A stretch of 64,000 bases of DNA. It comes from Hirudinaria manillensis (Eukaryota; Annelida; Clitellata; Hirudinida; Hirudinidae). The stretch lies in assembly GCA_034509925.1 (NCBI GenBank), contig CM067538.1, forward strand, positions 62,001-126,000, given 5' to 3'. Made by a program: the position numbers and the translations under genes. Of this stretch, positions 2,963 to 52,443 are shown piece after piece (the stretch's first letter is position 1; every line of letters starts with the position of its first letter). The notes under the pieces are model-generated. The model was not told where the DNA came from. It saw only the letters and a program-made list of their open reading frames with translations, and ran no database searches.

Positions 2963-3262
2963 TTGGCGACGAGGATGGCTACTGAGGATAAATTTTTGAC
3001 CATGATGACGATGTTCATGGAAGAAAATCGACGTCGCGACGATGAACGCCGCGAAGAAGAGACTCGCCGTCGCGAGGAAGAAATTCGTCGTCGTGAGGAG
3101 GAAGAAATTCGCCGTCGCGAAGAAGAAACTCGCCGTCGTGAGGAGGAGGAAACTCGCCGTCGCGAGGAAGAAATTCGCCGTCGTGAGAAAGATCTCCGCC
3201 GAGACGAGGAGAACCGTCGATGGGAAGAAGCTTTGCTGCAAGTCCCTGAAACCTCAGTATAA
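2963..3262 (+). CDS. Gag N-terminus with charged Arg-Glu repeats (Gypsy element 1)
   Basis: The likely start is ATG at 2974 (MATEDKFLTMM); an open frame extends back to 2963. Residues from about 20 onward are a run of RRREEE-type units (RRREEEIRRREEEE and variants), predicted to form a long charged helix or coiled coil. The frame stops at 3260-3262. The remainder of Gag continues in another frame from about 3236, so a frameshift separates this piece from the zinc-knuckle part. The repeats come from a degenerate 15-18 bp DNA unit (CGCCGTCGCGAGGAAGAAA), which could change in length easily. Confidence 0.6.
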   Translation: MATRMATEDKFLTMMTMFMEENRRRDDERREEETRRREEEIRRREEEEIRRREEETRRREEEETRRREEEIRRREKDLRRDEENRRWEEALLQVPETSV

Positions 3263-4706
3263 AGAAGCCATAGCGACAGACAGAAAATCAGATCTACCCC
3301 CGGAGGTCATGGGACAGGTAACTCAATCCAGTTATGATCCTGAGTCCGGGGCGCCCCCATCAAAGTGGATGGGACGGTTTGAAGCAGGAGATCACGCAAT
3401 GCAGTTGTCGGATGCAGACAAGGCAGACGCACTCGTGTCGAAGCTGGAGAAGCAGGAAGGATGCACTCTAGAAGACATGGTAAAAGAGTGTGAGAACCTT
3501 GTCAATCTGGGGAAGGACACCGACATGGTAGACGGCATGCAGGCTGTGAATGCAGTACGAAGAGGTTACCATAGGAAGAAGACTCGACGTATTTTCCCTA
3601 GCGAAGAAAATCCTCGAGAATCGTCCAAGGGTGCCTGCTTCATCTGTGGATCCTTGTCACATTTCAAGAAGGATTGCCCACAGAAGGACTGCCACAGAAA
3701 GGAATCGAAATTCAAGGGGCGAGTCAGAAAAATTAACACAGATCTCAGGACCAATCGAAGGTACGCCGAAGTTAGCTTCGGAGAAACCAAGCAGATAGGT
3801 TCGCCATCTCTGGAAGGAACGACGACTTCACTGGGAGCTGCAAATGGAACGCCGATTGAGGTCCTGGGTCAATTTGATGTTAAGTTCACCTGCGGAGGAT
3901 TTTCAGGCCACGGTCGCTGCTATGTGGCTGAAGAATCACCTCTACAGAAAGCCTTCAACGCCATCTGCTGCAAAATTGAGCAGAAGCCAGAAGAAGAAGG
4001 GAGACAACTTGCCAAGAGTTTGGCTGAAAGGTTCCCAGATGTTTTCGAAGAGGAGTTGGGCAAATGCAAGACTCGAGCACAGTTGATTGTGAGGCAGGGA
4101 GTTCGTCCGACCTTTTGCCGACAGAGGAAGATTCCGTTCGCTCGGGAGGAAGCAGTCAACACAGAGCTGGAGCGTCTAGTGCAACAAGGAGTCTTGAAGA
4201 AAGTGGATTATGTGACTATGGAGTGGGAGCTGTCATCTCTCATCGCTTCCCGAACGGCACGGAGAAGGCGATCGCACACGCCAGTAGATCTCTCACCAAG
4301 GCAGAGAAGAACTACGGACAACGGCAGAAGCTCTGATCATAAGCCACTGTTGTCGATCTTCGGATCCAAGGTTGGTATATCAGCTCATTCAGCAAATCGG
4401 CTCCAACGATGGGAACTCGTCTTGCTTGCGTATGATTTTGTCATCGAGTATAGGCGATCCACCCACTTTGGTCAAGCCGATGCGCTGTCCCGTCTCATCG
4501 CTACGAAGAAGCTGCCAGAAGATGAAGACATCGTCATTGCGAAGATCGAAAGGGATGTCAAGGCAGTTCAGAGTGATGTCATCCGAAACTTGCCAGTCAC
4601 AAAGGAGGATATTCAGAGGATGACTGAGGAAGATTCCGAGCTAAAGTTGGTTGTCGAAAGTGTAAGAGGATCGACGCTGCACGCCTCATGGGAACACGAG
4701 CCGTGA
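3236..4706 (+). pseudogene. Gag-Pol remnant: zinc knuckle, RT start, RNase H scraps
   Basis: The frame contains a Gag segment (KWMGRFEAGDHAMQLSDADK), a CCHC knuckle (CFICGSLSHFKKDC, near 3637-3680), a shortened protease-like region, then the start of reverse transcriptase ([18 protein letters not shown] ... LKKVDY). At about 4208 it jumps into RNase H sequence that lies in another frame ([20 protein letters not shown]), so the whole RT core including the catalytic aspartates is missing. A second jump near 4325-4340 returns to DHKPLLSIFGSK and ADALSRL. The frame ends at 4706 with the integrase in a different frame. No active enzyme could be made from this piece. Confidence 0.75.
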
Positions 4707-5881
4707 TCCCATCAGCCCTGCAAGGCCGAATTTTGAAGATGCTGCACGAGGGACATCCTGGGACAAGTAGAATGAAAATGCTAGCTCGACTGCACGTTTA
4801 CTGGCAAGGAATCGACAGGGACATCGAAGACAGAGTAAGACTTTGCAGTTCATGTCAGTTGGCTGCAAAGATGCCTGTCAGGAACGAACTGACGCCATGG
4901 CCGAAACCGGATTGTGCCTGGGAAAGGGTCCATATTGATTTTGCCGGCCCGATTGAAGGAGTGATGTTCTTAATCGTGGTGGACGCCTTCTCCAAGTGGC
5001 CTGAAGTTATTAAGATGAGGACTTCAACATCCACTGCCACAATCAGAGAACTGGGTAGGATTTTTGCGCAGCAGGGATACCCAAAAGTGATAGTTTCGGA
5101 CAATGGGACTCAGTTCACGTCCAAGGAGTTCCAAGAGTTCTGTCAGAGGAATGGAATGCAACACGTCAAGTCACCGCCCTACCAACCTCACTGCAATGGA
5201 CAAGCTGAGCGTTTTGTGGACACATTCAAGCGTACACTACAAAAGCTGCAGGGGGAGGAGGTGATGGAGGATGCGCTCCAGAAATTTCTGCTGACTTACC
5301 GGACAACGCCATGCACGTCTTTGACGGATTTGAAGACGCCGGCAGAGAAACTCCTAGGGAGACTTTTGAGAACTCCCCTGAGTGACCTCCAACTCAAAAG
5401 CCCAGTAAAACATCTCCCAAGAGCGGATCAGGAGATGGAAGAAAGGAAACCTATCCACAGGCGACTGAGAGAGTTCGTCGAGGGAGACGCAGTCTTCGTA
5501 AGAGACTACAAGGATCCAAGTCACCCGAAGTGGATACAGGGATGGATCAGGCGCAGACAGGGACGTCAAGTCTACCTAGTGGAGGCAAGCGGCAAAATGC
5601 TCCATCGCCACGCGAACCAGCTCAGGAAGCGTGCGCAGGATGATTCACTGAAGGTGATGTGTGAGGCATTTGACTTGCCATTCCTGCCACTAAGTGGGAC
5701 ATCCCAGACAACCGCAGAAAACACACACACGCCGGAACTACAGGAAATTCCAGAGTGCGAAGTGGAGCATGTCATTCCACCAGTGCAACCTCGGACACCA
5801 AAGAAAAGATCCGCAAGGAACCGCCGACCTCCGAGAAGGCTGGAGATGGATCCCCAGAGGAAGAAATACCTAATCGTTTAG
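4688..5881 (+). CDS. Integrase region of Gypsy element 1
   Basis: An open frame of 397 codons. It holds the H2C2 zinc-binding segment (HEGHPG ... CSSCQLA) and the DDE catalytic triad, with aspartates in HIDFAGPI and SDNGTQF and the glutamate in NGQAERF. A C-terminal basic region follows (PKKRSARNRRPPRR). The domain inserts the cDNA into host chromosomes. The annotated first Met is probably internal, because the upstream polyprotein continues in another frame. The stop at 5879-5881 abuts the polypurine tract and 3' LTR. The sequence resembles the K02A2.6/Mag-like branch of Ty3/Gypsy, judged by eye. Confidence 0.8.
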   Translation: MGTRAVIPSALQGRILKMLHEGHPGTSRMKMLARLHVYWQGIDRDIEDRVRLCSSCQLAAKMPVRNELTPWPKPDCAWERVHIDFAGPIEGVMFLIVVDAFSKWPEVIKMRTSTSTATIRELGRIFAQQGYPKVIVSDNGTQFTSKEFQEFCQRNGMQHVKSPPYQPHCNGQAERFVDTFKRTLQKLQGEEVMEDALQKFLLTYRTTPCTSLTDLKTPAEKLLGRLLRTPLSDLQLKSPVKHLPRADQEMEERKPIHRRLREFVEGDAVFVRDYKDPSHPKWIQGWIRRRQGRQVYLVEASGKMLHRHANQLRKRAQDDSLKVMCEAFDLPFLPLSGTSQTTAENTHTPELQEIPECEVEHVIPPVQPRTPKKRSARNRRPPRRLEMDPQRKKYLIV

Positions 5882-6545: not shown

Positions 6546-6850
6546 AATGTAAGAAATACCAATTGACACAAAAATATAAGTAGTGAGTAAAGTAATGAAT
6601 GTTAATGTAACAAGGATATGACATCTGATGAACAGGCAAAGGCTCTAAAGCTTTTCTTTACAGATTAATAATTGTATCGAGTGAATGACTCAACTTACAT
6701 ATAAACAATTGGGACTTAAACTTACTAATTATCTCATCGTTTATAGATAAATTGCGGAGTCAAACTGAAAATGTTGGAAGGCATGCCTCATACCTATAAA
6801 GATATTGCCAAATACCGAGGAATCGTTCATGTTCCATACCAAATCTCAAT

Positions 6851-6955
6851 AAAGATAATGATGATTTTTGTGAAATTTTTTTAATTTATATTTTTCATTG
6901 ATTAGGGTTAGCGTTAGGGTTAAGGTTAGGGTTAGGGTTGGATGACTCAACCGAT
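6851..6955 (+). repeat. Flanking repeat with TTAGGG motifs, copy 1 (upstream of U2)
   Basis: It begins AATAAAGATAATGATGATTT, runs through a T-rich part and GTTAGGGTTAGGG-like motifs (6901-6940), and ends GGATGACTCAACCGATGG. A close copy lies just downstream of the U2 gene at 8404-8507. The two bracket the U2 locus, as expected of a relic of a tandem U2 repeat unit or a segmental duplication. Confidence 0.7.
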
Positions 6956-7068
6956 GGTTGTTGCAGACGACCGGTGGGAATAGCAGACGATTTTTTTACA
7001 ACTGTTTTCAATCAACGTAACGCTGAATAAAATAATTGTATAAATGAACGTAAATTCTTGGAAATGGC

Positions 7069-7106
7069 ATCGCTTCTCGGCCTTTCGGCTAAGATCAAAT
7101 GTGTAG
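7069..7106 (+). pseudogene. U2 snRNA gene, 5' part (interrupted)
   Basis: The sequence ATCGCTTCTCGGCCTTTCGG followed by CTAAGATCAAATGTGTAG matches the universally conserved 5' end of U2 snRNA: stem-loop I and the start of the branch-point recognition region. U2 pairs with the intron branch site in the spliceosome. Identity stops at about 7106, inside or next to the GUAGUA branch-recognition element, where a retrotransposon begins. The rest of U2 resumes at about 8230. This copy cannot give a functional U2. Intact copies presumably exist elsewhere. Confidence 0.93.
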
Positions 7107-8107
7107 CTCCGCAAAAGCATAAACTTTCAGTGGATCGCGGAGAACAACGGCATTCCGTACCTCAAAATGGAAGGCAATCACGCGGAGAGCAGACTGAAGA
7201 ATTCCTTCAGAAGAAAGTACCAGAAGGATCTGCTCTCCAAAAAGGACCAGGGGAAAGTGTACGCCTCGACGACCCAGTCGGCGTACTCCAACCACTTCTT
7301 GCGAGACTCCACCAGGTTCACGGACTGGAGATTTATCTTCAGGGCCCGCTTGAACCTGCTCCCTCTCAACGGCGCCAAGAAGTGGAAAGACGGGGCCAGG
7401 AACTGCCGCCTATGTGGTTACCCTGACGAAACGCTACCCCACGTCATTAACCACTGCAAGCCGAGGATGTACCTGGTCACAGAGCGCCACGACCGAATCC
7501 TCCAGCGCCTGTACAAAGCCCTTCTCGAAGCCTCCAGGGCGAAGGCCTGTCTCAACCAAGTCGTCCCGCAATCCGTGCTGCAAGTTCGTCCGGACCTCGT
7601 CATCATCGATGAGGAGGAAAGGACATCATGGTGGACGTGACGGTCACGTTTGACAACGGTCCCGATGCCCTGGAAAAAGCCAGAGTAGGGAAGATCGCCA
7701 AATACAGGGAGCTGGAGGAAGAGCTGACAGTCAAGGTCGTCAATGAGGCCTTCGTGCTTGGCTCTCTCGGATCGTTCCCTCTGCATAACCTGGTAGTGAC
7801 CAAGATACTTGGCATAAACCAGAATTATGCGAGGACAATGGCCAAGTACATGGTCTCGGATACGATCCGCTGGTACCGAGACATATACACGGCGCACGTG
7901 ACCGGCGTCATCCAACGGAAGCCGAGATGCATGATGGCCTCGGTAGCGCCAGCAAGGCAGTCCTCAGACCGGGCGACGCAGGATGCGGTCGCTGGCCCGG
8001 TCTGGGAAGAGGAAGAGCCCTTGGATGAAGAAGTGGGACTGCCGGAAGAAGACACGGCCGCCCTGGAAGAGGAAATGGAGGAGGGAGAGGAAGAGGCAGC
8101 CGCTTAA
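7107..8107 (+). pseudogene. C-terminal CCHC and RLE endonuclease of the U2-inserted element
   Basis: The frame is open from 7107 (LRKSINFQWIAENNG) to 7640 and then continues in the next frame from about 7628 to the stop at 8105-8107. The first part carries FRARLNLLPLNGAKKW, the zinc motif CRLCGYPDETLPHVINHC and the nuclease segment RPDLVIIDEEER. The second continues with VDVTVTFDNGPDALEKA and AKYRELEEEL, so the PD, D and K residues of a PD-(D/E)xK nuclease are all visible but split by a one-base frameshift near 7625. The tail is acidic (EEEMEEGEEEAA). The reverse transcriptase is absent by 5' truncation. This is a dead copy, though decay looks slight. Confidence 0.85.
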
Positions 8108-8229
8108 GGCAGCCAAAGTACCCCAAGGACATAAAGAAGAGCTGTATAAAAATCACTGAACCATAAACCCAGCCAACAATTATGATTGAAATAGTCCAAA
8201 ACATAAAAACATTTTTTAAATAAAAACGT
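7107..8229 (+). mobile_element. Utopia-like RLE non-LTR retrotransposon inserted in U2 snRNA gene
   Basis: A 1.1-kb insert lies precisely inside the U2 gene, in the same orientation. It encodes the C-terminal part of an RLE-type retrotransposon protein and a short 3' UTR ending near TTTTTAAATAAAAACGTAAT. The 5' end is truncated: the open frame runs directly from the junction. U2 sequence resumes with TCTGTTCTTATCA plus a small duplicated TCTTATTAGC. RLE elements targeting U2 genes are known as the Utopia lineage; the Keno lineage also targets U2 but carries an APE-type nuclease. The nuclease type and the target together support a Utopia-like assignment. The 3' boundary is uncertain by a few bases. 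Confidence 0.85.
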
Positions 8230-8393
8230 AATTCTGTTCTTATCATCTTATTAGCTTAATATCTGATATGTCTTCCATCGGAGGACGTCGATATTAAACT
8301 ATTTTGTGGAAACCTGTGGTAGACTTCGGCTTGCCGAGCCTATCCCACGGGCTGGCCCATTATTGCAGTTCTTCTGGGATCGGCCTCCATCTA
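8230..8393 (+). pseudogene. U2 snRNA gene, 3' part
   Basis: After the insertion U2 resumes with TCTGTTCTTATCA and GCTTAATATCTGATATGTC. Stem-loop II follows (CTTCCATCGGAGGAC), then an Sm-like site (CTATTTTGTGG), stem-loop III (GGCTTGCCGAGCC) and stem-loop IV with the conserved TATTGCAG. The end is near CCTCCATCT. Together with 7069-7106 it makes a complete U2 apart from a couple of bases at the junction. The stems are intact, so the copy seems to have been functional before the insertion. Confidence 0.9.
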
Positions 8394-8403
8394 AAATCTA
8401 TAA

Positions 8404-47437: not shown

Positions 47438-50400
47438 TTAAATCTGTTCGTCCCGAACAGGCTGTTCTGTTTCTCCGTGATATTTTGCTAATCGATTGCT
47501 GTGGACCACTTTCATTCTAGTCCTTGCTGACTTCTGTATGCGGTATACCACGTCGTTTATTTTCTTTATGATTCGGTATGGTCCTTCCCAATCTTTTTGT
47601 AACTTTGGCGACTTCCCTTTTCTTCGTTGGGGGTTGTATAGCCAGACTAGTTCATCTTCTTTAAAACTTACATCATTGGCTTGCCTATCGTATCTCGCTT
47701 TGGCTTGATCGCTATTAACACTTATATTTTTCCGGGCAACCTGATGTGTGTCGGCAAGTGTATTTCTTAGGCTTGAAACGTAGTCACATGCCGACTTAGG
47801 TTCTTCTGCTCTTCCGTACATCATATCGGCAGGAAGACGAATCTCCCTCCCGAATGTCATTTTCGATGGACTGATTCCTGTCGTTTTATGCACGGCTGTC
47901 CGGTAGGCCATAAGGAAAAGTGGTAGGTATCTGTCCCAGTCATCTTGCTGTTCACTTACCATTTTTGACAAATACTGTTCCATGGTCCTATTAAATCTCT
48001 CGACCATACCGTCCGATTGCGGATGTAATGCAGTGGTTCTTGTCTTATGGATTCCAAGGTTTTCGCATAGCTCTTGAAATATTTTTGACTCGAAATTCCT
48101 TCCTTGGTCCGAATGTAACTCTAATGGCACCCCGAATCGACTAATCCAATTATTTACGAGAGCATCAGCTACATTTTCCGCCTCCTGATTTGGCAGTGCA
48201 AACGCTTCAGTCCATTTGGTGAAGTAATCGCTGATCACTAAAATGTACCGATTTCCCTTCTTTGATGCAGGGAATGGTCCGGCAATATCCAAAGCTATTC
48301 TTTCAAAAGGTACTCCCACATTATAAGGTTGCATTAGACCTTTAGTCTTCTTTTGAGGTCCTTTACTGGTTGCGCAATTATTGCAATTCCTACACCACTC
48401 CTCAACGTCTTGTTTGTAGTGCAACCAGTAAAACCTCTCCCTCACCTTCCTGATGGTTTTATTCACTCCCAGGTGTCCACCTGAGGTTCCGTTATGGAAT
48501 TCTTGTAACACCTCAGAGACGCAAGATCTCGGAAGTACTATTTGAAGGTGATAGTCGGTGCCATCCTCTGTTTCCCACTTCCTATGTAGGAGTCCATTAC
48601 TAATTCTCAAGGAATCCCACTGTGCCCAATAGGACTTAGTAACTTCTCCGTGCTCCGCTATCTGTTGCCAATCTGGTTTCACCCCAGCCTCCATCCACTG
48701 TAGTATGGGTGCAAGTGCTTCGTCTCTTAATTGTAGATCTCGTAACCCGCTTTCCGTCCAGGGTTCGGGAGCCGTGATACGAATTTGTCGACATTCTTCG
48801 GTTTCCTGTTTTTTCTCTGCGTTGTTGCAGTGTCTGCAGTTAAGTGGACAAGGACGTCGTGATAGCGCATCAGCGTTGTTGTGTATTTGACCTCTCCTGT
48901 GTTCAATATTGAACTGAAAACCCTGTAGTTTTTCAATCCACCTCGCCATCTGACCTTCTGGGTTTTTAAAGTTTAGCAGCCACCTCAGGGAGGCGTGATC
49001 CGTTCTTAGCAAAAACGGCTGGCCCAAAAGATATTTCTGGAAATGTTTCATGGATTCTACTGCTGCTAATAATTCTCTCCGGGTCACGCAATAGTTCCTT
49101 TCCGCTTTAGACAGTGAGCGGCTATAAAATGCTAGAACTTTTTCTTTATTTTCAACTTGCTGGGAAAGAACTGCTCCGATTCCACAGTTACTGGCATCTG
49201 TATCGAGGATAAAAGGTAATCCGGGAATAGGATATGCCAGGATCGGTGCCGTTGTCATAGCTTCTTTCAGATTATCAAATGCTTTTTCACAGCTGTCGTT
49301 CCAGATAAATGGTTTGCCTTTTACAGTAAGCTCATGAAGGCTTTTTGCGATGTTTGAAAAGTTGGCAATAAATCGTCTGTAATAGGTACAAAGTCCTAAG
49401 AAGCTTTGAAGTTCCTGGATATTTTTGGGTACAGGCCAATTTTTTACTACCTCGACTTTATCTGGATCTGTACTAACACCTTCAGAAGACACGATATGGC
49501 CAAGGTATTTGACTTCTTTTTTAAAGAGTGAGCATTTCTTTGGACTCAGTTTCATGCCTGCCTCTCTAATCCTACTAAATACTTCTCGGAGGTTGTCTAA
49601 ATGTTCTCCAAATGTTTTTCCGACAACAATTATGTCATCCAAATATACTAGGCATACTTTCCAATTGAGTCCCCTTAGTATATGTACCATTAATCTTTCA
49701 AACGTCGCTGGGGCATTGCATAGCCCGAACGGCATGACAGTGAATTGCCATAGTCCTTCACCTGTCGAGAAAGCCGTTTTTTCTTTATCGTCAGGATGTA
49801 ACTCAACTTGCCAGTAACCACTTTTGAGATCTAATGTGGAAAAAATTTTTGATCCCGAGAGAGTGTCTAAAGTGTCATCGATTCTAGGTAAGGGGTAGCT
49901 GTCCTTAAGTGTCATTTCGTTCAGCTTTCTATAGTCGACACAAAAACGAAGTGATCCGTCTTTCTTCTTAACGAGTACCACCGGTGAGCTCCAGGGGCTA
50001 TTTGACGGTTCAATAACCCCTTGGTCTTGCATTTCTTTTATCATTTCCTTGGCGTTTGCTCTTGTAGCTAAAGGAAGTGGACGGGGGTTTTGTCGAATGG
50101 GTTTAGCACCGGCCGTATTTATTTGATGTTGCACGAGGTTAGTCCTACCCAAAGGGCTGTCTTGTTCAGCCATTATATCCTGAAATTCGCTAAGCAGATT
50201 TTTCGCTTGTTGATAATCTTCTTTTTGTAGAGTTTTGTCTAAATCTTTCAGGAGATTGTCCATTAATGGTTTAGACATAGTATCCCTTTTGATATGCTTA
50301 TTTCCACTTCCATCTAATGTTAATATGCGTTCCACGTTCCTGCAAAGTGCGATAGGTGTTCCTGCTTTGATCTGTTGTTCCTGGTCAGATAGATTCATTA

Positions 50401-52363
50401 CCCTCAGTGGAACTCTGCCGGTGTTCAGCTTGACTAGTGCTCGTCCTATTAGTAGTCCTTGGCCAATGCCCGATTGATCTTCGACTGCTCCTATACCAAA
50501 TTTTGTATAGTCGCCTTCTAGCCTGCCCCAAATTAAGCTTTCCGACTGTGCCGGGATGGTCTCGTTTTGTAATACTTTTACAAACGTGTCTTTGACTTCT
50601 GTACCTCCGTAGTGTAGAGGAATCTCCATTGCTCCTTGTTGAAGGGTGCCGCCCTTCATGTCAATGGAAATTCCATAGCGTCGCATGAAATCCAATCCCA
50701 GTATACATTCGTCTGTTATATTGGCTATCATAAATTCCTGTTCGAATGACTTGCCTCCTAAATCCACTGTAATAGTTGTGGTTCCTTGAACTGGCACTAA
50801 TTCTCCGGTGGCTGTTTTTAGCTTGTAGTTGTTGGTCGTTACTTTACTGTTTCTTGCCAACTTTGGTTGGACAATAGATGTAGATGCCCCTGTGTCTATT
50901 ACAAGATTATATTCTTTCCCTCCAATTTTCCCTTTAACCTCTAGTGATGATCCTTTTCCTAATGCTGTAACGTGAAAGACGAGTGGGGCATTTCGAGTTT
51001 GCTGAAACGATCTTTGCCCCTTAAAATTAGTAGCTTCAGGTTTTTCTGATTTATAGGGCTCTCTCCAGTACTGCCGATTTTTGGAGAAGATCGTTCTACA
51101 TTCTCGGGCTAAATGGCCAGGCTTGTTGCACCTGAAGCACCTTGGTCTTCTATCTACTACCTGGAATCTTAAGTTTCTTTGGGGCTTGCTGAGGTCATTG
51201 ATTTGTCGAGCTATTTTTGTAATCATCTCTCTGTCTTTGTCATTATCTTTATCTTTCTCCTTGCCTCTGTCTTCCTGAGCTTCAATTTTCTTTACATTCA
51301 AGCTTTTTTGGATTGAGGCTCTTGCCGCTTCCATGGAGATTGCAAACGCCAATGCTTCATGGCTGGCCTTTATTCCATGAATTTTTAGTGCCATTTTGGT
51401 TTCCGCATCCCTTATCCCATCAACGAAGGCGTCAGTTATAATGTTTTCAATGAAATCCGTTGACTGTCCTGGATGGGCTAAGTATGCGAGCCTTCTGACG
51501 TCAGCTTCTAATTCTTGGAGTGATTCGCCCTGTTTTTGCGTACGGTTTTTTAATTCGTTTTTATGTACTTCCAGCATGTGGCCATTCCCAAATCTTCTTT
51601 CCATTGCTTCTGCTATTTCTGAATAGGCTTTACAGTGGAGCATTGTTTGCAAAAGCTCGGCTGCCCTTCCTCGCAGTACCATTATCAGTTCTGTTGCTTT
51701 TTCTTCTTCGGTCCACTTGTTACGTTCAGCGGCAGTTTCAAACTGATGTCTGAACACTGCCCATGGCCCTTGTCCGTCGAATAATGGTGGTCTTGTCGTT
51801 TTCTCTCTTCCATATGTCTCTGTTTTCGATTCATTGTATTTTTTAAACTTCTCTATTTCCCTCCTCTGCTCTTCTTTTAGTGCATCTAATTCTGCTTTAA
51901 CCTTTCTCAGGTCGGCCATCTCCTTGGATGATCTGAGGTTGGCTACGTCCGTTTTTACCTCTTCCCGTAGAACATCCACGGATGTCTGGCATTTGGCTAC
52001 GTCTGTCTTTACCTGCTCCCGTAAAACATCCATGGCTACCTGGAAGTTGGTTATATCTGATTTCATATCCGACCGCAGAGTATCAATGTCACATTTCATA
52101 TCTGACCGCAAAGCATTCAAGCCGCAAATCAGGGCATTATTGTCGGCTTTCATAGCAGTCTGAAGGGTTTCCAATTGTTTTTCCCATTGTTTTTCTTTGT
52201 GAACCCCAAATTCATACTCCGACGGATCGTGATTATTTTCCAAAAGCCATTCCTCGAGCCGTCCTTGTAGTTCGGCTTTTAGGCCAGTTGCATCCAGGCC
52301 TCGATTCCTTAGTTCTCGTCTCAAATCGGGAACGCGCAAATCTTCCAGTATCTTAGGTCCCAT
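47438..52363 (-). CDS. Gag-Pol polyprotein of Gypsy element 2, with N-terminal SAP domain
   Basis: 1,641 aa in one frame. Residues about 5-40 form a SAP-type helix-turn-helix (LRVPDLRRELRNRGLDATGL), a DNA/chromatin-binding module rarely noted in Gag. Coiled-coil repeats follow (VLREQVKTDVAK, VLREEVKTDVAN), then a Gag core and one CCHC knuckle (CFRCNKPGHLAREC, about 408). The retropepsin active site is VIDTGASTSIV (about 487). Reverse transcriptase has FCVDYRKLNE and the catalytic YLDD (about 906). RNase H has ILDTDASNCGIGAVLSQ and HNNADALSRRP. Integrase has the H2C2 finger (HLGVNKTIRKV ... CRNCNNC) and the DDE residues in LDIAGPF, HSDQGRNF and MVERFNR (about 1357-1455). The C-terminus resembles the GPY/F module (WEGPYRIIKKINDVVY). 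No env-like frame is present. Intact catalytic residues suggest function. Confidence 0.95.
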   Translation of the reverse strand: MGPKILEDLRVPDLRRELRNRGLDATGLKAELQGRLEEWLLENNHDPSEYEFGVHKEKQWEKQLETLQTAMKADNNALICGLNALRSDMKCDIDTLRSDMKSDITNFQVAMDVLREQVKTDVAKCQTSVDVLREEVKTDVANLRSSKEMADLRKVKAELDALKEEQRREIEKFKKYNESKTETYGREKTTRPPLFDGQGPWAVFRHQFETAAERNKWTEEEKATELIMVLRGRAAELLQTMLHCKAYSEIAEAMERRFGNGHMLEVHKNELKNRTQKQGESLQELEADVRRLAYLAHPGQSTDFIENIITDAFVDGIRDAETKMALKIHGIKASHEALAFAISMEAARASIQKSLNVKKIEAQEDRGKEKDKDNDKDREMITKIARQINDLSKPQRNLRFQVVDRRPRCFRCNKPGHLARECRTIFSKNRQYWREPYKSEKPEATNFKGQRSFQQTRNAPLVFHVTALGKGSSLEVKGKIGGKEYNLVIDTGASTSIVQPKLARNSKVTTNNYKLKTATGELVPVQGTTTITVDLGGKSFEQEFMIANITDECILGLDFMRRYGISIDMKGGTLQQGAMEIPLHYGGTEVKDTFVKVLQNETIPAQSESLIWGRLEGDYTKFGIGAVEDQSGIGQGLLIGRALVKLNTGRVPLRVMNLSDQEQQIKAGTPIALCRNVERILTLDGSGNKHIKRDTMSKPLMDNLLKDLDKTLQKEDYQQAKNLLSEFQDIMAEQDSPLGRTNLVQHQINTAGAKPIRQNPRPLPLATRANAKEMIKEMQDQGVIEPSNSPWSSPVVLVKKKDGSLRFCVDYRKLNEMTLKDSYPLPRIDDTLDTLSGSKIFSTLDLKSGYWQVELHPDDKEKTAFSTGEGLWQFTVMPFGLCNAPATFERLMVHILRGLNWKVCLVYLDDIIVVGKTFGEHLDNLREVFSRIREAGMKLSPKKCSLFKKEVKYLGHIVSSEGVSTDPDKVEVVKNWPVPKNIQELQSFLGLCTYYRRFIANFSNIAKSLHELTVKGKPFIWNDSCEKAFDNLKEAMTTAPILAYPIPGLPFILDTDASNCGIGAVLSQQVENKEKVLAFYSRSLSKAERNYCVTRRELLAAVESMKHFQKYLLGQPFLLRTDHASLRWLLNFKNPEGQMARWIEKLQGFQFNIEHRRGQIHNNADALSRRPCPLNCRHCNNAEKKQETEECRQIRITAPEPWTESGLRDLQLRDEALAPILQWMEAGVKPDWQQIAEHGEVTKSYWAQWDSLRISNGLLHRKWETEDGTDYHLQIVLPRSCVSEVLQEFHNGTSGGHLGVNKTIRKVRERFYWLHYKQDVEEWCRNCNNCATSKGPQKKTKGLMQPYNVGVPFERIALDIAGPFPASKKGNRYILVISDYFTKWTEAFALPNQEAENVADALVNNWISRFGVPLELHSDQGRNFESKIFQELCENLGIHKTRTTALHPQSDGMVERFNRTMEQYLSKMVSEQQDDWDRYLPLFLMAYRTAVHKTTGISPSKMTFGREIRLPADMMYGRAEEPKSACDYVSSLRNTLADTHQVARKNISVNSDQAKARYDRQANDVSFKEDELVWLYNPQRRKGKSPKLQKDWEGPYRIIKKINDVVYRIQKSARTRMKVVHSNRLAKYHGETEQPVRDEQI

Positions 52364-52443
52364 TTCTGTCGTTAAAACTCGCTGTTTTTACCTCTAGTGA
52401 ATCGATATCCCTTTACGACGCTAAATCCCACTCCTGACACCAA

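Follow-up and report, generated by a model that had tools for sequence, protein, structure and literature searches.

The window analysed here is a 64,000-nucleotide stretch of the genome of the leech Hirudinaria manillensis (C13:62001-126000, on a contig of 8,303,845 bases), and the search for related sequences covered the whole assembly (148.43 Mb, 23 contigs). Positions given without a contig are those of the window. At 7069-8393, a U2 snRNA gene is split near nucleotides 37-40 by an insert of about 1.1 kb, and the locus is composed of the following features, all on the plus strand:

6845-7068, plus: spacer of a type B/C U2 unit, lying upstream of the gene and containing TTAGGG-like tracts; matches the type-B unit
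7069-7106, plus: 5' fragment of the U2 gene, nucleotides 1-37 and one inserted base; 97% identical to the genome's own U2 across 38 letters (E 5.6e-12)
7107-8234, plus: 5'-truncated Utopia-type element (linker, CCHC, endonuclease and 3' UTR, without RT); similar to longer copies
7107-7637, plus: first open frame, with the linker, the CCHC knuckle and the first endonuclease motif; from translation, motifs by eye
7613-8107, plus: second open frame, in another phase, with the remaining endonuclease, an acidic C-terminus and the stop codon; from translation
8108-8234, plus: 3' UTR of the element, ending in AAACGTAA(T) as the array copies do
8235-8393, plus: remaining, 3' part of U2, carrying 8 extra nt ahead of stem IIa; Rfam RF00004
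8394-8510, plus: downstream spacer of this U2 unit, with the shared element AATAAAGAT right after the gene

The insert encodes, within 7107-8106, a linker, a CCHC knuckle (7404-7457) and a PD-D endonuclease, with an RPD motif read off the sequence (PD at 7590-7595); the zinc knuckle scores below the Pfam cut-off (zf-RVT, E 0.015). In tblastn comparison, the full-length element on contig C4 matches the insert at 83% over 178 aa (7107-7625) and at 73% over 146 aa (7625-8050), and the nucleotide identity to longer copies on C2, C4 and C12 is 78-80%. The RT is absent from the insert, which has kept only the C-terminal part of the element, and the two halves of the endonuclease are in different reading frames (open frames 7107-7637 and, before the stop, 7613-8104); because of this phase change inside the endonuclease, the window copy is inactive. 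A sequence-only reading of the locus had described CCHC and RLE endonuclease coding sequence in an insert of about 1.1 kb, which the tblastn matches and the open frames bear out. The same reading had placed a canonical U2 5' end at 7069-7106 and the rest of U2, with all stems, downstream of the insert, and here the outcome is mixed: at the 5' end, 37 of the 38 aligned letters match but an extra base follows GATCAAA, and the 3' part is recognized by the Rfam U2 model (8198-8393, E 3.4e-13, with the true U2 portion starting at about 8235) but is not pristine, given the 8-nt insertion before stem IIa.

The TTAGGG tracts nearby are the spacer of type B/C U2 units, and an internal telomere was accordingly rejected. 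Other transposon-related sequences in the window include a weak tblastn match to the Utopia endonuclease at 2453-2632 (33% over 63 aa, E 1e-4), a Gypsy-type element in pieces at 3009-5881, and another Gypsy-type element at 47438-52387 on the minus strand, with a single 1649-codon open frame and an N-terminal SAP domain.

U2 arrays and the host of the insertion

Three arrays of U2 genes were identified in the assembly:

C2:12.50-12.62 Mb, minus: type A array, units of about 1204 bp
C4 from 13.600 Mb to at least 13.639 Mb (contig end 13.643), plus: type B array, units of 473 bp
C13:0.4-61.2 kb (C13:416-61194), at the contig end, minus: type C array, 135 units of about 450 bp

The type B U2 is 84% identical to that of type A, and the Rfam U2 scores of types A, B and C are 173, 158 and 143 bits, respectively. 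Between types A and B, five base pairs are changed on both sides and are still paired; one type-A pair is lost in B, and of the four positions that do not pair in A, three are paired and one is unpaired in B. At the branch-site recognition element, GUAGUU replaces GUAGUA in 24 type-B and 100 type-C copies among the matches listed, the places concerned being the C4 and C13 arrays and C2:14237452; a type-B unit at C4:13637536 lacks GUAGUU, departs further at the site and carries no insert. Type C has further changes in the normally conserved 5' region of U2. Common to types A, B, C and the window's unit is AATAAAGAT shortly downstream of the gene, which we take to be a 3'-box-like signal.

The type C array ends 8 kb before the interrupted gene of the window. 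The 3' part of this gene is nearer to types B and C than to type A, with identical columns in 146 of 160, 147 of 161 and 117 of 162, respectively, and 8246-8400 is 95.5% identical to the type-B sequence over 155 nt. That this gene is a stray unit, some 8 kb from a 135-unit array with an altered 5' region, raises the possibility that the insertion is hosted by a satellite derived from U2 and not by a genuine U2 gene, as with the U2_sat entered by YURE in Ciona. We consider such a host less likely than a genuine gene, though plausible, given the five doubly compensated base pairs between types A and B, the downstream element shared by all three types and the window, and the 5' end of the window's gene, which is canonical bar one extra base. 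A U2 gene is thus the favored host, and the term is used below for the units of all three arrays.

The assembly also includes a 15,581-base contig (C23) carrying COX1, which is 98% identical to that of Poecilobdella javanica and 96% identical to an H. manillensis record. A full-length COX1 match with nine TGA codons lies inside a chromosome (C9:3026446-3027786) and represents either a nuclear mitochondrial insert or a misassembly.

Recurrence and specificity of the insertions

The search recovered ten U2 genes with an insertion, which lies at the same point in each of them: six of type A, three of type B and the one in the window. The six in array A comprise three identical 122-nt copies, two copies of 4.6 kb (E4.6a and E4.6b) and one of 5.8 kb (E5.8), whereas the three in array B (C4a, in the first unit, C4b and C4c) all belong to the 4.6-kb family and are 99.9-100% identical where compared. 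Some copies have lost their 5' portions, the 122-nt copies retaining the 3' UTR only. The copies within an array have largely been amplified there, so the ten genes correspond to about five distinct insertions at three U2 loci, in which at least two protein families are represented.

The 5' part of U2 ends at nucleotide 34 in the 4.6-kb copies of both arrays, at 36 in the 122-nt copies, and at 37 in the 5.8-kb copy and in the window. The 3' part starts at nucleotides 38-40 in leech numbering, which is one more than the human numbering; in type A, shared letters leave the exact 3' junction uncertain by 1-2 nt, and in type B it lies at nucleotide 40. About 1-5 nt of U2 are lost at these insertions, and there is no target-site duplication at the junctions of the interrupted genes. 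The flanks of the interrupted units follow their host array: the upstream sequence is 100% type A for E4.6b, E5.8 and a 122-nt copy, 100% type B for C4c, and reads as type B for C4b. E4.6a has a small insertion in its upstream flank (0.35 ungapped), and in C4a the type-B match extends no further upstream than a few tens of bases (0.53).

Several further sites on C2 are of note. At C2:12510912-12511123, a U2 unit without any element has a short, imperfect duplication at the Utopia site, possibly the scar of an abortive insertion. At C2:12493093-12493130, a decayed U2 5' fragment reaching nucleotide 37 continues into letters similar to those at the 5' end of the 5.8-kb element and is probably an older same-site insertion of that family. 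The edge of array A (C2:12491000-12504000) contains many decayed Utopia fragments.

Outside U2, the picture is less uniform. The window insert matches 13 loci genome-wide (14 matches), six of them in U2 genes and seven elsewhere; of the latter, four end at the 3' end of the element within other sequence and three have no recognizable 3' end in the sequence read. The exact 16-letter 3' end of the element occurs 14 times, being followed by U2 in eight cases and by other sequence in six. A search allowing one mismatch yielded 100 matches, compared to 140 for the reversed pattern, and most one-mismatch matches are therefore due to chance. Of these 100, the eight in U2 were set aside, 11 from one unrelated repeat (TGTAAATAAACGTAATCGAACACGACA) were dropped, five are off-target copies of the element, and 76 served as controls, including C2:115898 and C6:6088997, which are exact 16-letter matches with an unverified element body. 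The five related copies outside U2 (two on C12 and those at C2:3.75, C2:8.55 and C2:12.49 Mb, the last known from a 64-nt 3' UTR match only) end at words resembling TATCTGTTC or TTTCTGTTC, and their flanks are more U2-like than the 76 chance flanks (Mann-Whitney p = 1.4e-4). Immediately after one off-target copy, at C12:4395642, comes sequence resembling a different RT.

The off-target copies with a recognizable 3' end, the seven of 13 matching loci that are not in U2 and the near identity of the copies within each array would fit a promiscuous RLE element that had landed in U2 by chance and had then been spread by array amplification. This explanation is highly improbable: five distinct insertions from at least two families, at three U2 loci, share one 3' junction and differ at their 5' junctions, and the off-target sites themselves resemble the U2 site. 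Recurrence at the same U2 position in independent copies, which the sequence-only reading had named as the proof of specificity, is what is found, with at least two families inserted at the same point in two other arrays. Copies at random sites, which the same reading had named as a refutation of a site-specific Utopia-type family, are seen in part: the preference for the U2 site is strong, not absolute, because five copies lie outside U2, yet at U2-like words.

Element proteins, their relatives and a proposed mechanism

Two families retain open frames. The 5.8-kb copy E5.8 has a frame of 1768 codons, of which the 1746 aa starting at the first Met were used, and that of C4a has 1459 codons, or 1448 aa counted from the first Met; the two proteins are 41% identical over 960 aa. 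C4b is open across the part read in one piece (1287 codons), and both 4.6-kb copies of array A as well as C4c are frameshifted. E5.8 and C4a share the one-ORF layout of Utopia, with N-terminal zinc fingers, a central RT and a C-terminal CCHC and RLE. The RT was detected over the Pfam cut-off (RVT_1, E 1.4e-26 for E5.8 and 7.5e-32 for C4a), the C2H2-type matches fall below it, and the CCHC and PD-D motifs were seen in both sequences, those of E5.8 also in an alignment with R2 proteins that extends over the RT and the endonuclease, the PD...D stretch included. No Myb family was detected by Pfam in either protein at E <= 0.1, in keeping with the absence of the R2 Myb domain that characterizes Utopia in the portion of PMC13188248 consulted. 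In the same search, neither protein matched an RNase H family, a feature of oomycete Utopia. A third, broken Utopia-like family was found at C2:13818295-13825595, where a tail is followed by the N-terminal part of another copy; there is no U2 match in 6.6 kb of this family (C2:13.818-13.826 Mb).

To place the RTs, a FastTree phylogeny was built from 123 rows: the two leech proteins, three R2 rows and 118 of the best 120 among 660 relatives (E <= 0.001, out of 7987 scored candidates), P0097 and P0114 being too partial to include. E5.8 and C4a group with P0002 and P0006 with a support of 1.00, and an enclosing node (0.88) contains rows from Pelodiscus, other turtles, wasps, Ladona, Plectus and scorpions; the nodes between these two are weak (0.36-0.62). 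Among the hosts of Utopia in Table 1 of PMC4640811, as far as that source was available, are Pelodiscus sinensis and Ladona fulva. Outside the enclosing node are the R2 rows, a spider clade with an R2 annotation, the Ulp1-bearing rows and Caenorhabditis sp. 36. The sequence-only reading had expected a tree of full-length RTs to decide the clade, and the RTs of the full-length relatives indeed fall among the Utopia-host rows and outside R2. The leech RTs thus appear to belong to the Utopia/NeSL side and not to R2, to judge from the species names of the rows, the named Repbase families being outside the tree. The window copy, which has no RT, is placed through these full-length relatives.

Keno, an APE-type element, inserts at this U2 site too, and its 3' flanks are identical (PMC4640811, in the part seen), but the chance that the insert is Keno is negligible, considering that E5.8, C4a and the window insert end in CCHC and a PD-D endonuclease, which in E5.8 aligns with that of R2, and that neither E5.8 nor C4a has an AP endonuclease domain according to Pfam. 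Keno and R2 were both rejected on the grounds of endonuclease type, target and RT position. There is very little doubt, then, that 7069-8393 represents a stray leech U2 gene with an old insertion, 5'-truncated and dead, of a Utopia-type RLE non-LTR retrotransposon.

By analogy with R2, whose biochemistry is the source of the nicking and priming steps, the family most likely would be mobilized by target-primed reverse transcription. The endonuclease is predicted to nick the U2 DNA just before TCTG (human nucleotide 39), the 3' UTR RNA would be copied from the nick, and a second cut, in the top strand and a few nucleotides upstream, would give rise to insertions without target-site duplication. 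The three C4 copies contain a 57-nt tandem repeat that consists of the U2 leader to nucleotide 34 and the first 24 nt of the element, starts exactly at U2 nucleotide 1 and lacks one G in both repeats. This structure is compatible with an element RNA that begins at U2 nucleotide 1, is transcribed from the U2 promoter and underwent a template jump; such co-transcription is suggested by one ancestral event, and the repeat could also be a plain 57-bp tandem duplication. An HDV-type or other ribozyme at the 5' ends of the elements was considered and rejected, the Rfam search of 751 and 701 bases (E <= 1) having returned U2 only.

Insertion load and comparison with known systems

The exact 27-letter target of types A and B is intact in 134 places, 76 in reverse orientation, which are type A on C2, and 58 forward, the 24 of these among the matches listed being all type B. 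With up to three mismatches, 145 U2 5' ends were found: 134 with the target, six of the interrupted genes, one decayed C2 fragment, one type-B unit with a changed site and three forward-strand matches left unclassified. The other four interrupted genes are outside this set, their 5' ends being too altered (one of the three C4 copies scored). About 7% of the A/B genes (10 of 144) are therefore interrupted.

The type C array presents a different pattern, with 135 5' ends and 135 uninterrupted sites on the reverse strand (the matches listed, 100 each, are all on C13, and two forward-strand matches to the type-C 5' end are outside this count), and no insertion was seen among these 135 units. Type C has GATCAATTAAGTAGTTTCTG in the place of the GATCAAAGTGTAGT(A/T)TCTG of A and B, so that the Utopia target AGTGTAG is replaced by TTAAGTAG; the window's unit, related to type C by its flanks, keeps TGTGTAG and carries the element. 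One interpretation is that the genome contains three diverged, separately homogenized U2 classes, that array C, the largest, escaped Utopia by target mutation, and that the window's unit is the relic of an insertion from before the change. Counted by copies, type C differs from A/B (10 interrupted and 134 intact vs 0 and 135, p = 0.0017), but counted by distinct events in the arrays the difference is not significant (4 vs 0, p = 0.12); because of the latter value, the escape of type C is not established, and we regard this scenario as a whole as unlikely. If it is true, type C would offer a natural experiment, of a rare kind, on target-site escape in a gene with a nearly invariant 5' region.

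The leech element belongs to an already known type, Utopia, of the NeSL clade (Kojima and Jurka 2015, PMC4640811, seen in part); what is new is the setting of three arrays, and we do not claim a first annelid case. That paper has no mention of annelids, lophotrochozoans, molluscs or Capitella, and 'leech' appears once, within a reference to a HERO element; the portions available of PMC5678591, PMC13188248, PMC7650587 and PMC5348765 do not mention annelids either. No annelid Utopia emerged from literature searches on Utopia with U2 snRNA, NeSL or non-LTR (titles and abstract beginnings, with Repbase outside the search), and we found no papers joining U2 snRNA, annelids and retrotransposons. The present case extends the hosts of this ancient retrotransposon lineage, whose target is an essential gene, by an annelid; in a chromosome-scale genome, intact units, interrupted units and two open-frame families can be counted, which makes the persistence of Utopia without killing the host directly testable.

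In comparison with Utopia as described in the parts of PMC4640811 available, the leech elements are likewise RLE non-LTR retrotransposons with zinc fingers, RT, CCHC and RLE in one ORF, inserted in U2 with a 3' flank from nucleotide 39 (human numbering) in all ten interrupted genes. As in arthropod Utopia families, there is no target-site duplication, and other shared features are 5'-truncated copies, off-target copies at U2-like words and the coexistence of two or more families within a single U2 array. The differences are that the host is an annelid, a phylum missing from Table 1 of that paper; that intact targets outnumber interrupted genes (134 vs 10), the reverse of Phytophthora and Nasonia, in which disrupted U2 genes outnumber intact ones (Table 3); that there is no RNase H, as opposed to the archaeal-type RNase H before the RT in oomycete families; and that one genome contains three diverged U2 arrays. 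With R2, which is an RLE element specific to 28S rDNA, the leech elements share an alignable RT and endonuclease and, presumably, the type of mobility, but they differ in the target, in RTs that fall outside the three R2 rows and in the lack of a Myb match in E5.8 and C4a. The APE-type Keno shares the U2 insertion site and differs in the endonuclease class. Finally, YURE of Ciona is a related lineage with a U2-like target that, according to the same source in part, occasionally enters a U2-derived satellite, whereas leech arrays A and B have the full U2 structure.
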